From Cryomorphaceae bacterium (lineage in GTDB: Bacteria; Bacteroidota; Bacteroidia; Flavobacteriales; Schleiferiaceae): DNA of 32,619 bases. A model generated the notes under the pieces. It had not been told where the DNA came from and searched no databases. It worked only from the letters and a program-made list of their open reading frames with translations. Shown in pieces: positions 2,194 to 9,893 of the stretch. Positions within the stretch are counted from its first letter, which is position 1, and the number at the start of each line of letters is the position of its first letter. Position numbers and translations under genes: made by a program. The DNA lies in the NCBI GenBank assembly GCA_002682945.1, contig NYSL01000015.1, positions 38,654 to 71,272 of the forward strand, read 5' to 3'.

Positions 2194-3717
2194 TTAGTCC
2201 TTCCTCACAAACTCTAACAAATAAGTATCTGGATTGGGTAATTGCATGATTAAATTGAATCGTTGAGGAAATTCCTCAATTGCAGGCATTAAATATCTCC
2301 CTACAGAAGAATAGCCAAGCTGATCAATAATAACATGAGTAATACCCAAATCTTCTAGACGGTGAATAAATTTTTCTGTCTCAATTATTGATGGGATCCT
2401 GGAGCTTTTTGTGGAAGAGTAGAGGTAAAATAAAGACGGCTTAACAGTACAAACAATGGAATTTTCAGGGATGCTAGATTTAACATATCTGCTAATATTA
2501 AAATAGTTAGAATATTCAAGAGGCAAATTAGATTTACTTTCCGATCTCATTGTCGATAATTGACTTAATGGAAGAAAACAGACTAGCATTATTAAATAGC
2601 TAGAATTTATACGAATTTGACCTAGATATTTCCTTTGAATAAAAGAAATTGAATTACTTAGTCCGACTAACATAGCCAAAAACAAAAAAGGCATTAGCGG
2701 GAGCATAAATCTAACACCAAACCAAACCGATGGCCATAAAAGAAAAATAGAAACAGAGGAAGTCAAATACCCCAACCACATCATTCTAAGCCTGGGCATT
2801 TTTATCGTACCAATAAAAATAAAAAAGACCAATATAAGGCCATAAATAAAATAACCCTTAGGCTCCTCTGAACTGTATATAATCTCAAAATTTGGAAACA
2901 ACCCATTAGGTATTTCCTGATTCAAATACCTAAAAATATTATTGGAAATTCTATCTAACCAACCGGAAAAATTTAACAAACCTTCCTCAGGCCGGTACGG
3001 ATTAACTTGAACTATTTGTGTTAAATAAGAATTTCCTCCAAGTTTTACACCTCTATAATACCATGGAAGAGATAAGCACAAAAAGCTTAAAACAAAAACG
3101 ATCGCCCCGGACCATTTTTTTTCAAAAATCATAAATAAGCAAACCCCAATTATAAGTGCTATCCCTGCTGTTCTAATGTGATAAGATATAGCGCATAAAA
3201 CAATCATAAACCAAAACCATTTCGACCTCCAAAAAATATTACCTTGCTCATTCCATTTTATTAAACAAGTCAGAGATGAAAGCGAAAAAAATAAAAATGG
3301 AATTTCGCTCATCAATATCATTGAAGATCTTAGTATGTGGGCATTAATAATTGTAAAAATTATAGCTAAAATCGAAAGACTTTTACTAACTGCCATTCTC
3401 TCAAAAATTCTTTGAAGCATTAGTAGAGAGAAGAAAAGAAATAATCCATTAATGATTTTCAAAAAAACAAAATCATCAGAAAAATTCATAAAGGCTGAAA
3501 GTATTATCGGGTATCCTGGAGGGAAATGATTTGCAGGGTTCGCATTTGGCAGGTGAATATCCGTGTAACCTAAACCACTACTAATCGACTTACCTAAAAT
3601 ATAGTAACCAGCATTATCTCCACCTACATCGATTTTTGTATCAAAAACAGCGATATAGATAACCAAAAACCCTAGTAGAATCCATAAATCTGATATTTTA
3701 AAAAGGTTTTTGATCAT
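2194..3717 (-). CDS. GT-C-fold membrane glycosyltransferase (ArnT/PMT-like)
   Basis: A 507-residue polytopic inner-membrane protein with roughly ten hydrophobic segments. The first helix (about 11-25) is followed by a periplasmic loop with VGGDNAGYY near 31-39 and HFPPGYP at 64-70. The acidic residue in the first loop and the PPGYP motif are typical of family 39/83-like glycosyltransferases, which move a sugar from a polyprenyl-phosphate donor to lipid or protein outside the membrane. The C-terminal 110 residues are a soluble periplasmic domain. A degenerate -7 box (TAATTTCA, 3729-3722) ends four bases before the ATG, with TTGG about 18 bases further upstream. It is divergent from cysC. Acceptor and donor cannot be inferred, and no glycan cluster surrounds it. 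Confidence 0.75.
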   Translation of the reverse strand: MIKNLFKISDLWILLGFLVIYIAVFDTKIDVGGDNAGYYILGKSISSGLGYTDIHLPNANPANHFPPGYPIILSAFMNFSDDFVFLKIINGLFLFFSLLMLQRIFERMAVSKSLSILAIIFTIINAHILRSSMILMSEIPFLFFSLSSLTCLIKWNEQGNIFWRSKWFWFMIVLCAISYHIRTAGIALIIGVCLFMIFEKKWSGAIVFVLSFLCLSLPWYYRGVKLGGNSYLTQIVQVNPYRPEEGLLNFSGWLDRISNNIFRYLNQEIPNGLFPNFEIIYSSEEPKGYFIYGLILVFFIFIGTIKMPRLRMMWLGYLTSSVSIFLLWPSVWFGVRFMLPLMPFLFLAMLVGLSNSISFIQRKYLGQIRINSSYLIMLVCFLPLSQLSTMRSESKSNLPLEYSNYFNISRYVKSSIPENSIVCTVKPSLFYLYSSTKSSRIPSIIETEKFIHRLEDLGITHVIIDQLGYSSVGRYLMPAIEEFPQRFNLIMQLPNPDTYLLEFVRKD

Positions 3718-3776: not shown

Positions 3777-3819
3777 AAATATATTAAATCCTACTAAATC
3801 AGTAGGATTTAATATATTT
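3777..3819. repeat. Perfect 19-bp inverted repeat over the cysC promoter
   Basis: The left arm 3777-3795 and right arm 3801-3819 are exact reverse complements (right arm AGTAGGATTTAATATATTT), separated by the 5-base loop AAATC. The right arm overlaps the cysC -7 box; the mirror sequence in the left arm gives a leftward TATATTTT at 3783-3776. Both flanking genes run away from it, so it is not a terminator. An operator bound by a dimeric regulator of sulfate assimilation is the simplest reading. Confidence 0.85.
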
Positions 3820-3820
3820 G
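3813..3820 (+). promoter_or_regulatory. -7 promoter element of cysCDN
   Basis: TATATTTG is an exact match to TAnnTTTG. No TTG lies at the expected -33 distance because the palindrome fills that region, which suggests a promoter needing an activator or blocked by a repressor. The predicted transcript starts near 3825-3827, exactly where a CCCC-TCA-GGGG hairpin (3824-3834) begins, leaving a leader of about 35 nt. Confidence 0.6.
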
Positions 3821-3859
3821 CAACCCCTCAGGGGCAATGGCTTAATTGATTATTTGACA

Positions 3860-4450
3860 ATGAATCAGAATATTTTCAAACAAAATTATAAGATTAATAG
3901 ACTCGATAGGGAGAAATTATTGGATCAAAAAGGATTGGTTTTATGGTTCACCGGTTTAAGCGGAAGCGGAAAAAGCACTTTGGCAAATTCCGTAGAAATT
4001 TTTCTTCATAAAAAGAAGAAGCACACGTTATTACTTGACGGAGATAACCTAAGACATGGACTCAATAAGGATTTAACTTTTAGTCCCGAAGATCGAAAAG
4101 AAAATATTAGAAGAGTTTCTCATGTAGCAAATCTCGTGGCTGACTCCGGACTTATTGTTCTTTCGGCATTTGTGAGTCCTTTTAAATCTGATAGAGAAGA
4201 AGCTTCTCGAATAATAGGTAAAAATAGATTTATCGAAATCTATGTCGAATGTCCACTAAGCGTATGCGAGTCCCGCGATATCAAAGGATTATATTTAAAA
4301 GCCCGAAGAGGAATTATTTCAGATTTTACCGGAGTGACGTCTCCATTTGAAACTCCTGAATCCCCATCAATTACTGTGAATACTGAAACCACTAATATTG
4401 AGAATTGTACCCAAGAAATTATATCATATTTATCAAAAAACCATGCTTAA
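3860..4450 (+). CDS. cysC: Adenylylsulfate (APS) kinase
   Basis: A cytoplasmic enzyme that phosphorylates APS with ATP to give PAPS. The P-loop GLSGSGKS comes early, followed by DGDNLRHGLN, the FSPEDRKENIRRV segment, the SAFVSPFKSDR motif and the KGLYLKARRG lid region, all standard for CysC; 196 residues is the usual length. The ATG at 3860 is chosen because an upstream in-frame TTG at 3818 lies inside the promoter box. The last codons overlap cysD by eight bases, indicating translational coupling. It is the first gene of cysC-cysD-cysN. Because CysC makes PAPS, the cluster could feed PAPS reduction or sulfation; no cysH or sulfite reductase is in the window. Confidence 0.95.
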   Translation: MNQNIFKQNYKINRLDREKLLDQKGLVLWFTGLSGSGKSTLANSVEIFLHKKKKHTLLLDGDNLRHGLNKDLTFSPEDRKENIRRVSHVANLVADSGLIVLSAFVSPFKSDREEASRIIGKNRFIEIYVECPLSVCESRDIKGLYLKARRGIISDFTGVTSPFETPESPSITVNTETTNIENCTQEIISYLSKNHA

Positions 4451-5336
4451 CCACCTAGACGAATTAGAATCAGAAGCAATTTATATAATTAGAGAGGTAT
4501 ATGCTCAATTTGAAAACCCAGGAATTCTTTTTTCTGGGGGCAAGGACTCTATTGTAATGAGTCATTTAGCTAAAAAGGCATTCTTTCCAGCCAATATACC
4601 TTTCCCAATGGTTCATATTGATACTGGACATAACTTCCCAGAAGCAATTCAATTCCGAGACGCATTCGTTAAAAAAATGAATACACAATTAATTGTTGGA
4701 CTAGTTCAGGATTCGATCAATAAAGGAAGTGTAAAAGAAGAATTAGGGTCCATGGGAAATAGAAACCGTCTTCAAACAACAACCCTACTTGAAACAATAG
4801 AATTAAATAAGTTTGACTGTTTAATGGGTGGGGCACGAAGAGACGAAGAAAAAGCACGAGCGAAAGAACGGTTTTTCAGTCATCGAGATGATTTTGGGCA
4901 GTGGGATCCAAAAAATCAAAGACCTGAACTCTGGAATCTCTTCAATGGAAAAAAATTGCAAGGAGAGCATTTTAGAGTTTTCCCAATTTCTAATTGGACC
5001 GAAATGGATATATGGCATTATATCCGGCGTGAAAAAATTGAATTACCAGAACTTTATTTTGCCAAAAAAAGAAAAGTGATTTGGCGCAATGACTCTTGGT
5101 TGCCCGTCAGTTCATTTATCAACTTAAAATCCACAGAGGTCCCTCAGGAAAAAATGGTGAGATTCCGAACTCTGGGAGATATCACAATTACTGGTGGAAT
5201 AGAATCAGAAGCAACAAAACTTGATGATGTCATACACGAAATAGAAACATCAAGACATACCGAACGAGGAAATCGAGAGGATGATAAGCGCAGCGAAAAC
5301 TCTATGGAGGAGAGAAAAAAAGAAGGGTATTTTTAA
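4443..5336 (+). CDS. cysD: Sulfate adenylyltransferase small subunit
   Basis: The ATP-pyrophosphatase-fold subunit that makes APS from ATP and sulfate in complex with the CysN GTPase. The PP-loop SGGKDS is at residues 31-36, followed by DTGHNFPE, the GGARRDEEKARAKERFFS block and SNWTEMDIWHYI, all hallmarks of CysD. The ATG at 4443 gives 297 residues, the normal length. An upstream in-frame TTG at 4398 would only add a tail that is read inside cysC. The start overlaps the cysC stop (ATGCTTAA). The C-terminus is charged (RGNREDDKRSE...) and ends in MEERKKEGYF, as usual for the family. Confidence 0.96.
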   Translation: MLNHLDELESEAIYIIREVYAQFENPGILFSGGKDSIVMSHLAKKAFFPANIPFPMVHIDTGHNFPEAIQFRDAFVKKMNTQLIVGLVQDSINKGSVKEELGSMGNRNRLQTTTLLETIELNKFDCLMGGARRDEEKARAKERFFSHRDDFGQWDPKNQRPELWNLFNGKKLQGEHFRVFPISNWTEMDIWHYIRREKIELPELYFAKKRKVIWRNDSWLPVSSFINLKSTEVPQEKMVRFRTLGDITITGGIESEATKLDDVIHEIETSRHTERGNREDDKRSENSMEERKKEGYF

Positions 5337-5370: not shown

Positions 5371-6609
5371 ATGAATTTATTAAGATTTACTACTGCTGGA
5401 TCAGTAGATGATGGAAAATCAACACTTATAGGTCGTCTACTTTTCGACTCAAAAAGTGTATTTATTGATCAAATGGAATCCGTGGAAAAAACCAGCCACC
5501 GCAAAGGCCTAGATACCATTGATTTCAGCTTATTGACTGATGGCTTGAAAGATGAAAGAGAGCAGGGAATTACAATTGATGTTGCGTACCGATATTTTTC
5601 AACTCCGAAAAGAAAATTCATTATAGCTGACACACCTGGCCATATTCAATACACAAGAAATATGGTCACCGGGGCTTCAACGGCAGATACTGCGCTAATA
5701 ATTATCGATGCTCGTCATGGAGTAGTTGAACAAACTAGAAGACACAGTTTTATTGCAGGGCTTCTGGGAATACCCTCACTACTGGTATGTATCAATAAAA
5801 TGGACTTAGTTGACTTTGAAAAAAAGATATTTGATAACGTTGTTTCCGACTTTAAAAAGATTATGGATTCATCAAATATAGAATCAGTAAATTTTATACC
5901 AATATCAGCTCTTTTGGGAGATAATGTTGTTGAAAAAAGCGAAAACATGTCTTGGTATAAAGGATACACACTACTGAACCATTTAGAAACCATCGAAATT
6001 AATGATTCAAGGTATTTACAAGAATTCCGAATGCCCATTCAATCAGTAATAAGACCGCATTTAGACAAATACCATGATTATAGAGGTTATAGTGGAAGGG
6101 TTTCCTCAGGCACAATTTCTCAAGGTGACACAATAGTAGCTCTTCCATCTCAAAATTCAAGTACAGTTAAATCAATTTATTGTGGAGATGTTTTAATAAA
6201 TAAGGCATACTCTGGTCAGAGTATAGCTATCGAACTAAATGATGACATAGATGTAAGTCGAGGAGACACCCTTGCAAATAAAAATTCATTAAATATTGAA
6301 TCCATTTTTGATGCAACGATTTGTTGGCTAGATAATGAAAGACAAGGACAGGGTTCAAAATACTCGTTGCGACAAGGTACAAATGAAGTGAAATGCATAA
6401 TCCAAGAAGTTAGCGGTGTTTTGAATATTCATTCCCTGGATTTCGAGCCCTCAAATGATGGACTCGTGCCAAATGGGATAGGAAAAGTAAGAATTAAAAC
6501 CACCAAAAGCATCGTTTATGATTCCTACACTAAAAATAGAGTAACAGGATCTTTTATCCTCATCGATGAAACATCAGGATCAACAGTAGCTGCAGGTATG
6601 ATCTCTTAA
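5371..6609 (+). CDS. cysN: Sulfate adenylyltransferase large subunit (GTPase)
   Basis: An EF-Tu-like GTPase that drives the unfavourable sulfate adenylation carried out by CysD. Visible G motifs are GSVDDGKST (10-18), GITID (66-70), DTPGH (87-91) and NKMD (142-145), followed by two beta-barrel domains. At 412 residues it ends after the barrels and has no fused CysC kinase domain, in agreement with the separate cysC upstream. It sits 34 bases after cysD and is probably on the same transcript. No terminator is visible between it and the next gene. Confidence 0.95.
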   Translation: MNLLRFTTAGSVDDGKSTLIGRLLFDSKSVFIDQMESVEKTSHRKGLDTIDFSLLTDGLKDEREQGITIDVAYRYFSTPKRKFIIADTPGHIQYTRNMVTGASTADTALIIIDARHGVVEQTRRHSFIAGLLGIPSLLVCINKMDLVDFEKKIFDNVVSDFKKIMDSSNIESVNFIPISALLGDNVVEKSENMSWYKGYTLLNHLETIEINDSRYLQEFRMPIQSVIRPHLDKYHDYRGYSGRVSSGTISQGDTIVALPSQNSSTVKSIYCGDVLINKAYSGQSIAIELNDDIDVSRGDTLANKNSLNIESIFDATICWLDNERQGQGSKYSLRQGTNEVKCIIQEVSGVLNIHSLDFEPSNDGLVPNGIGKVRIKTTKSIVYDSYTKNRVTGSFILIDETSGSTVAAGMIS

Positions 6610-6678: not shown

Positions 6679-7692
6679 ATGTTCAATAAGCAAGTAGAAT
6701 TTCTTAAACTTATTCAGCAGAGAATTCCTGAGCATATTAATGCGGTTGAAACTTTAAGTGTTGTTTTAGGTATTGGAAATGACTCCACATACCGACGCCT
6801 TCGGGGAGAAACAGCTTTAACTTATGAAGAAGCGTTTAAGTTAGCTGACCATTTTGGACTTTCTCTAGATAGCGCGGGGATAGATGCTTTAAAGCGAGTA
6901 GATTTTGATGCAGGAATCCCTATAAATAATCTCGAAGATTATCAAGCACATTCAAAACGAATAATGGACAGGATGTTACGTTTTGAAAATTATGGAGAAA
7001 ATGCCCACATGTACTATTTTGCTCTAGATTTTCCATTATTTTATATTTATAACTCTCCATCACTTTTGAAGTTAAAATCTTATGTTTGGGGAAGGAGTAT
7101 TCTGGGCTTACCTGAGATGGCATCCATCACTTTTGATGAGTTTATAATTCCTGAAGAAAAACTGAAAAAAGATTTAGAGGTAATCAGAAGTTACTCGAGA
7201 ATACCATCGACTGAAATCTGGACTAACTCGAGCTATGTAGCTACTTTAAAACAACTACAATATTGTTGGGAGACAGGTATGATAAATAAAGAAAAAGATG
7301 CTCTAGATATACTTAATGAACTCGAAGATATTTTAGAAATTATGCGAGTTCAATCAGACCATGGAAAAAAAATCAATCCAATAACAAAAGAACCATCTGG
7401 CGCCAGGTTTAACTGGTACATTAGCGATTTATCCGTTGGGAATAACGCCGTTCATATAACTGCACAAAATAATTCTCATACATTTTTAAGCTTTAATACT
7501 TTCAATTTTATTGAAACAAGTAATGCTGCTTTTAATATCCAAACAAAGAATTGGCTTGACAACTTTCTAAAAAGATCAGAGCTAGTAGGATCTGTTGGGC
7601 AAGGTAAACGTGATCGATATTTAAAAAAATTAACTGATCAAATCGAATCTATCCGTAGTACTATCGTGAGAAAAGGCGAGACCCTGCTTTAA
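6679..7692 (+). CDS. Uncharacterised DNA-binding protein with N-terminal HTH
   Basis: 337 residues. Residues about 18-62 form a lambda-repressor-like helix-turn-helix: an LSVVLGIGNDSTYRRLRG helix pair, then TYEEAFKLADHFGLSLD, as in XRE-type domains. The remaining 270 residues match no family I recognise; they include aromatic-rich stretches near 105-135 and a basic C-terminal helix (RDRYLKKLTDQIESIR), which suggests a mixed ligand-sensing or dimerisation domain. No transmembrane segment or signal peptide is seen. It follows cysN by 69 bases on the same strand, so read-through is possible; whether it regulates sulfate genes is a guess from position only. Proteins of this layout are common in Bacteroidota as single regulators. 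Confidence 0.6.
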   Translation: MFNKQVEFLKLIQQRIPEHINAVETLSVVLGIGNDSTYRRLRGETALTYEEAFKLADHFGLSLDSAGIDALKRVDFDAGIPINNLEDYQAHSKRIMDRMLRFENYGENAHMYYFALDFPLFYIYNSPSLLKLKSYVWGRSILGLPEMASITFDEFIIPEEKLKKDLEVIRSYSRIPSTEIWTNSSYVATLKQLQYCWETGMINKEKDALDILNELEDILEIMRVQSDHGKKINPITKEPSGARFNWYISDLSVGNNAVHITAQNNSHTFLSFNTFNFIETSNAAFNIQTKNWLDNFLKRSELVGSVGQGKRDRYLKKLTDQIESIRSTIVRKGETLL

Positions 7693-9161: not shown

Positions 9162-9893
9162 TTAAAAAACAAGTCGCTGATGATACAATTCAGTATAGTA
9201 TTCAAGGGCTTCTGTCTCAATTTTGGAATATTTTTTTTCCAAGGGATCTCCCAGTATTGAACCTTTCTCGAAATAAGAACTTTTGTGAACATTAGAATAC
9301 CAATATGGCCACCAAGCTCCATCATATTCTTTTCTACCTTGAGGCCAACGAAGCATTTCCTTAAAAAAAGGAATCCCAATAGCATCACAAATAATGGGAA
9401 AAGTTTTTTCAGGTTCATTTAACATCTCATCGCTATTAACAATAATTTTAGGACCAGAAAATTTTTGAATATCCTTCCATTGATTTACTTGCTCTTCAAT
9501 TCCAATATCTGAAAGACTTACCTCTGGAAGAACTTTTAAAAAGGAACGAATCACTTTCCGGGGATGCCTGATCCAAAAAACATGAATAGCTTCTTGAGCC
9601 CAATCCCAATTAGCATCCACCATGTGCTGAGCCATATTTTTTATATATACCTCCTTTGCCTCTGAGGATGAAATAAACTGCTGAACCCTCTGAATAGCTC
9701 CCCCAAAAGAATTTGGGTACAATTTTAAGGTTTTCGTCTTTCCCGGATGATTTAGGTCTTTTTTTTTGAGGTAAGCCGCATAAAAGGGCTCATCAATCAC
9801 TTCGCAATTGGGACGCTGAGCAAATGAGTACATCAGAGCAGTACTTATATTTCTAGGGCCAGATATTGCATGGATAACTTTATTCTTGTTCAT
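9162..9893 (-). CDS. Sulfotransferase-like P-loop protein
   Basis: 243 residues, no signal peptide. SGPRNISTALM (11-21) occupies the 5'-phosphosulfate loop position, and VFWIRHPRKVIRSF (105-118) matches the 3'-phosphate site with arginine and serine seen in PAPS-dependent sulfotransferases. Acidic EVIDEPFYAAYL follows the first loop, and a conserved-looking WPQGRKEYDGAWWPYWY stretch lies near 184-200. The first loop is unlike the classic GTT loop, so real sulfotransferase activity is not certain. It is the first gene of an operon with a class IV aminotransferase and DoxX. As I recall, plant branched-chain-aminotransferase-like proteins carry the same two domains fused in this order; that is memory and needs checking. 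Confidence 0.75.
   Translation of the reverse strand: MNKNKVIHAISGPRNISTALMYSFAQRPNCEVIDEPFYAAYLKKKDLNHPGKTKTLKLYPNSFGGAIQRVQQFISSSEAKEVYIKNMAQHMVDANWDWAQEAIHVFWIRHPRKVIRSFLKVLPEVSLSDIGIEEQVNQWKDIQKFSGPKIIVNSDEMLNEPEKTFPIICDAIGIPFFKEMLRWPQGRKEYDGAWWPYWYSNVHKSSYFEKGSILGDPLEKKYSKIETEALEYYTELYHQRLVF

Follow-up and report, generated by a model that had tools for sequence, protein, structure and literature searches.

Among the regulators of the Rrf2 family, CymR is a repressor whose regulon is known from the Firmicutes Bacillus subtilis and Staphylococcus aureus; in Clostridium acetobutylicum, the Rrf2 protein encoded beside cysK has been proposed as CymR, with a cysC/cysD/cysN operon among its predicted targets (PMC3828012). 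IscR likewise represses transcription from type-1 sites that lie over the polymerase site (PMC3899308). The wings of Rrf2 proteins contact AT-rich flanks, and B. subtilis CymR carries no Fe-S cluster (PMC9338935). In Bacteroidota, promoters of the sigma-A type possess a -7 box, TAnnTTTG, which mapping in Flavobacterium psychrophilum places at -12 to -5 (PMC9723704). Our literature search, which covered open-access work and little of the subscription literature, returned no description of an Rrf2/sulfur regulon in Bacteroidota, and this is weak evidence of novelty.

Here, we analysed a stretch of 32,619 nucleotides (the window) from the genome of a Cryomorphaceae bacterium (G000; 1.65 Mb, 44 contigs, 95.3% complete), in which a preliminary description had noticed a palindrome at the head of the cysCDN operon for sulfate activation. 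The repeat search recovered the palindrome as described, with two arms of 19 nt each that are 100% complementary and enclose the 5-nt loop AAATC, in the 142-bp space between cysC and a divergent gene (Table 1). That the palindrome is too long to be random also holds, since perfect 19-bp arms with a loop of 0-10 nt are expected, from base composition, 6e-6 times in the window and 3e-4 times in the 1.65-Mb genome. Its core CCTACT-N5-AGTAGG (17 bp, 3790-3806) lies within a conserved 25-bp operator and has one mismatch-free copy in the whole window genome. The operator scores 33.8 with its position weight matrix (PWM); the second-highest score anywhere in the window is 6.1. The site is a dyad of the ~23-27 bp type, in which two short half-sites flank an AT-rich centre over the promoter. 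The lines of evidence below, taken together, lead us to a probability of about 0.85 that the palindrome serves an Rrf2-family (CymR/IscR-like) transcription factor as its operator in the promoter of the operon for sulfate activation.

Table 1. Features of the cysCDN promoter region and operon in the window (strand "." where none applies).
Feature	Position	Strand	Sequence or basis
Divergent PMT-type glycosyltransferase/membrane gene	2194-3717	-	PF02366; syntenic in L130, L133, L135, L142
Left arm of perfect palindrome	3777-3795	.	AAATATATTAAATCCTACT; repeat search
25-bp conserved operator, putative Rrf2 binding site	3786-3810	+	AAATCCTACTAAATCAGTAGGATTT; alignment, PWM, model R1
Right arm of perfect palindrome	3801-3819	.	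AGTAGGATTTAATATATTT; repeat search
-7 box of Bacteroidota sigma-A-type promoter	3813-3820	+	TATATTTG; 6 bp past operator core
Small 5'-end hairpin CCCC-TCA-GGGG	3824-3834	+	CCCCTCAGGGG; not conserved
Predicted transcription start	3825	+	inferred from -7 box position
cysC, adenylylsulfate kinase	3860-4450	+	Pfam PF01583; NCBIfam adenylyl-sulfate kinase
cysD, sulfate adenylyltransferase small subunit	4398-5336	+	NCBIfam TIGR02039 over cut-off
cysN, sulfate adenylyltransferase large subunit	5371-6609	+	NCBIfam TIGR02034 over cut-off

The -7 box had been assigned to the right arm, which is correct for TATATTT, while the final G at 3820 falls just outside the arm. When this box is set at -12 to -5, the predicted +1 lies near the position given in Table 1, and the half-sites CCTAC (3790-3794) and GTAGG (3802-3806) occupy -35 to -31 and -23 to -19, respectively. 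The earlier remark that TTG is missing at -33 is borne out, as the left half-site CCTAC takes the -33 position; no -33 TTG was found in the window promoter or in the aligned homologous sites. A scan for sigma-70-type promoters gave no match, as is expected for Bacteroidota. The cysC start is the ATG at 3860; an in-frame TTG at 3818 is cut off by a stop codon in the sister genome (G014, Owenweeksia sp. TMED14; CysC 97% identical to that of the window). The start of cysD likely lies inside the listed open reading frame, near 4443. The CCCC-TCA-GGGG hairpin, which had been placed at the 5' end of the mRNA, does sit about at the predicted +1; its conservation fails, as it is broken in the 97% sister, which reads CCCCTCAGAGA, and absent in other relatives. 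We therefore rejected it as a functional element.

A promoter without a -33 TTG might need a bound protein, and the factor could then be an activator. The position of the left half-site at -33, with no TTTG there, would fit this, as would the activation by IscR at some sites, such as E. coli suf (mentioned in PMC4055776). However, a dimer spanning -35 to -19 would sit over the polymerase spacer, where repressors usually bind, and both IscR at type-1 sites over the polymerase site (PMC3899308) and CymR (PMC3828012) repress. Activation is thus less likely than repression, and we regard it as unlikely.

To follow the site across the genus (the Schleiferiaceae/TMED14 lineage), 22 genomes were searched. 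A 91-bp query recovered homologous stretches at the start of the cys operon, even where CysC is only 62-72% identical. An alignment of 24 sites, from 22 genomes of the family and two Flavobacteriaceae, gave the consensus CCTACY-N5-RGTAGG, followed in nearly all by TAnnTTTG after 6 (5-7) bp, and the start codon often stands ~3-8 nt from the -7 box. The sequence model R1, trained on 19 sites, detected the site in 20 of the 22 genus genomes, nearly always once and at the cys operon. Genomes outside the training set were recovered as well: in G019 the site is found at its cys operon, and in G017 (68% complete) before a gene for a FAD/NAD(P)-binding protein (PF13454; L208 about 270-298, G017:C89). 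G005 carries a second operator with a -7 box before its PF13454 gene (L220 about 1505-1545, G005:C51), which makes this gene a possible second target in the G005/G017 subclade. Model R1 had no match in G020 (96% complete) and G021 (74% complete); G020 lacks the site, Rrf2 and the cys genes altogether. The preliminary description had named two outcomes that would speak against it, namely loss of the palindrome upstream of cysC in relatives and many unrelated copies in the genome. Neither was found: the core is kept throughout the genus as well as in other genera, and the site is essentially unique per genome. Its placement at a position suited to control sulfate activation is likewise upheld by the conserved core in front of the cys operon.

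These data also bear on the possibility that the palindrome is a MITE- or REP-like mobile or repeated sequence and regulates nothing, to which its length, perfect pairing and intergenic position might point. However, there is one copy in the genome, and the same promoter carries the site in relatives as far apart as different families. A transposon or REP-like repeat was therefore rejected on its single copy, with practically negligible probability.

Conservation differs along the palindrome. Counting paired positions outwards from the centre, we found the half-sites kept across the family, while the outer arms are fully or nearly paired only in the window genome, its sister and G010. Judged from the alignment, function resides in the ~25-bp operator together with the -7 box, and the perfect 19-bp arms are a lineage-specific addition that mirrors the -7 region. 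By our reading, such mirroring may give rise to a divergent, imperfect -7 box, or it may lengthen the AT-rich flanks available to the Rrf2 wings. The mirrored left arm (3777-3786, minus strand) contains an imperfect divergent -7 box, TATATTTT, directed toward the PMT-type gene, and this box occurs in the same three genomes only.

The pairing pattern is also relevant to whether the palindrome works at the RNA level, as a terminator, attenuator or riboswitch. The fold is very stable (-33.1 kcal/mol, z -4.1), and the minus strand has a terminator-like match. Nevertheless, the half-sites are conserved and the outer stem is not; the site sits between divergent gene starts, and no Rfam family reached its gathering score, with only chance-level matches to unrelated families. 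In relatives, moreover, the start codon stands a few nucleotides from the -7 box, so that the palindrome lies upstream of the predicted transcript. With a negative Rfam scan and a predicted transcript that starts downstream of the stem in relatives, the RNA element was rejected as very improbable.

In most relatives, a gene for an SLC13/CitMHS-TrkA_C permease precedes cysC, giving the operon order SLC13 permease-cysC-cysD-cysN, and the palindrome is found upstream of the permease. The motif had seemed absent upstream of cysC in some relatives because the permease gene sits between. In the window genome (at 3820-3859 of the window) and its sister the permease has been lost, which brings the promoter and operator to abut cysC. 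G012 appears to retain a short permease remnant (L020 1275-1495, G012:C79). No permease ortholog was found elsewhere in the window genome, which holds only a paralog with 28-35% identity.

The protein bound at this operator is very probably a cysteine-regulator-like member of the Rrf2 family. One Rrf2 gene (PF02082 over cut-off) is present in 19 of the 22 genus genomes, in a cluster with an S1/P1 nuclease gene before it and a cysteine-synthase-like PALP gene directly downstream. The latter encodes a PLP enzyme of the cysteine synthase/cystathionine beta-synthase/cysteate synthase group. For the PALP enzyme at L092 408-1406 (minus strand, G014:C5), the best model is cysteate synthase (NF053679; 457 bits, below the cut-off of 600), hinting at sulfonolipid (capnine) metabolism. 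The genus Rrf2 protein scores below the equivalog cut-offs of CymR, IscR, RirA and NsrR (64 bits for CymR NF047409, cut-off 195; 55.8 bits for IscR TIGR02010, cut-off 207.6). Among solved structures, those closest to it by sequence are 4cic, a regulator of the BadM/Rrf2 family, and 2y75, B. subtilis CymR, the nearest of the named regulators. The alignment revealed four conserved cysteines, C-x8-C-x2-C-x5-C, in the C-terminal half, and the subfamily with this pattern is common to the genus, Flavobacteriaceae and Chitinophagaceae. The Rrf2 gene was not found in the window's own assembly, while the sister has it. The whole 3.4-kb Rrf2 neighbourhood, including a ribosomal protein gene that we take to be S16-like, is missing from this 95%-complete assembly as well, and an assembly gap is therefore the likely reason.

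Outside the genus, palindromes of this type are strongly associated with Rrf2 genes. In 30 Flavobacteriales Rrf2 loci, CCTAYN7RTAGG was observed 14 times against 0.23 expected from dinucleotide shuffles (~60-fold) and CTAYN7RTAG 49 times against 3.75, an excess that overstates the number of independent events as the loci are partly close relatives. Of the 49 CTAYN7RTAG sites, 39 are intergenic, ~17-fold denser than in coding sequence. Such palindromes stand between Rrf2 and the cysH operon (e.g., L151, L160, L163, L164 and L198, where the site reads TTATCCTACCAAATTAGTAGGATAT) or between Rrf2 and SLC13 (L178, L197). The pattern CCTACYNWWWNRGTAGG-N6-TAnnTTTG was further scanned in 84,980 genomes, which gave 21 stretches, 12 of them in sulfur or Rrf2 contexts: nine permease/cys heads in Schleiferiaceae, two SLC13 heads in Flavobacteriaceae and one Rrf2-peroxiredoxin site. 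This last palindrome (L138, Chitinophagaceae, JAICZH010000006.1) is flanked by a divergent Rrf2 gene on one side and a peroxiredoxin gene on the other, a placement which suggests autoregulation and a link to oxidative stress. The other nine stretches lie outside these contexts. Three are terminator-like (L131, L134, L144), four represent one coding position in Syntrophomonadaceae (L140, L143, L146, L148) and two are probably due to chance (L132, L149), and all of these were discarded. One match in Chitinophagaceae (L145), divergent from a cysteine-synthase-like gene, is ambiguous.

Presence of the site also follows that of the regulator in part. Among relatives outside the genus, no site was found in those with cysC but without a clear Rrf2 (G022, G034, G046, G049, G050, G056, G058), and a palindrome of this type lies upstream in the Rrf2-bearing G024, G027, G029, G030, G032 and G033. 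In a further five Rrf2-bearing relatives (G023, G025, G035, G037, G053) no recognisable site was seen upstream of cysC; the rule connecting site and Rrf2 is therefore one-sided. The search in the genome and in related Bacteroidota thus placed the site at SLC13/cys heads and at Rrf2-sulfur loci. The early guess of an Rrf2-type operator gains from it, together with the single Rrf2 gene beside a cysteine-synthase-like gene, the enrichment at Flavobacteriales Rrf2 loci and the L138 site.

A regulator from outside the Rrf2 family could bind the operator instead, for instance the putative HTH protein encoded at 6679, which follows the operon, or an unlinked factor. Consistent with this, the window assembly lacks Rrf2, and in the genus the operator is not adjacent to the Rrf2 gene, whose cluster yielded no such palindrome. 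However, the palindrome type is strongly enriched beside Rrf2 genes in Flavobacteriales and is also found there in Chitinophagaceae, and the surveyed cysC genomes without a clear Rrf2 also lack the site. The protein at 6679, which had been put forward as a candidate, has no family match, and a different small protein follows cysN in the relatives that keep the operator; it was dropped as the regulator since it is not conserved beside the operon. A non-Rrf2 regulator is therefore quite improbable.

For binding, repression and the effector of the Rrf2 operator, we infer the following mechanism. With CCTACT-N5-AGTAGG occupied by an Rrf2 dimer, from about -35 to -19, neither the place of the -33 element nor the spacer just before the -7 box would be free, and RNA polymerase would be blocked. 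This position fits repression, comparable to IscR type-1 sites and CymR. By analogy with CymR, low cysteine or sulfide, or a redox change at the conserved cysteines, may release the regulator, whereupon cysCDN would be transcribed, together with the SLC13 permease in most relatives, and PAPS would be made.

The destination of this PAPS can be considered from the gene content. With PF01507, no CysH was found in the 22 genus genomes; the matches in 18 of the 22 genomes are the CysD of the operon (split over contig ends in G016), and G016 has one extra sub-threshold match. CysD is thereby the sole clear protein of this PAPS reductase fold in the genus, and cysCDN appears to form PAPS with no PAPS reductase to use it. 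The window contains a gene with a Sulfotransfer_5 domain (9162-9893, minus strand) beside a class IV aminotransferase gene, apparently syntenic in L137, and its product is a possible PAPS user. Given that CysH was not found and that the Sulfotransfer_5 gene is nearby, the cysCDN operon probably makes PAPS for sulfation. More tentatively, sulfate activation might be controlled by an Rrf2 subfamily peculiar to Bacteroidota, with C-x8-C-x2-C-x5-C as its sensor motif, that has been kept in this small-genome marine genus with about one target, gating PAPS for sulfation and not for cysteine synthesis, as cysH was not found. The site and the Rrf2 protein represent a candidate operator-regulator pair for sulfate activation in little-studied marine Bacteroidota, and CCTAY-N7-RTAGG with its variants offers a palindrome for predicting the Rrf2/sulfur regulon across Flavobacteriales.

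In comparison with the CymR regulon of Firmicutes (B. subtilis, S. aureus; predicted in C. acetobutylicum; PMC3828012), this system shares the Rrf2 gene beside a cysteine synthase gene, the palindromic AT-rich operator in the promoter and the proposed control of sulfate/cysteine genes. It differs from CymR in that the genus Rrf2 stays below the equivalog cut-off and has four conserved cysteines, and in that its regulon comprises about one operon, without a cysH partner in the genomes searched. The IscR type-1 site of gamma-proteobacteria (ATASYYGACTRWWWYAGTCRRSTAT; PMC3899308) is likewise a 25-bp palindrome over the promoter with ACT-N5-AGT half-sites. The window site matches 19 of the 25 positions of this consensus, which is comparable to the 68-76% of Pseudomonas IscR sites (PMC3899308); because two other places in the window reach 19/25 by chance, this likeness was rejected as stand-alone evidence. 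Positions G7 and C19 of the consensus are T and A in the window site, and the target in the genus is sulfate activation, whereas that of IscR is Fe-S biogenesis. In the Rrf2-cysH-cysDN clusters of Flavobacteriaceae, the regulator adjoins its targets and the pathway has cysH, whereas in the genus the operator stands apart from the Rrf2 gene and no cysH was found; both systems nevertheless share the same Rrf2 subfamily, and in the Flavobacteriaceae clusters CCTAY-N7-RTAGG lies between Rrf2 and the sulfur genes.
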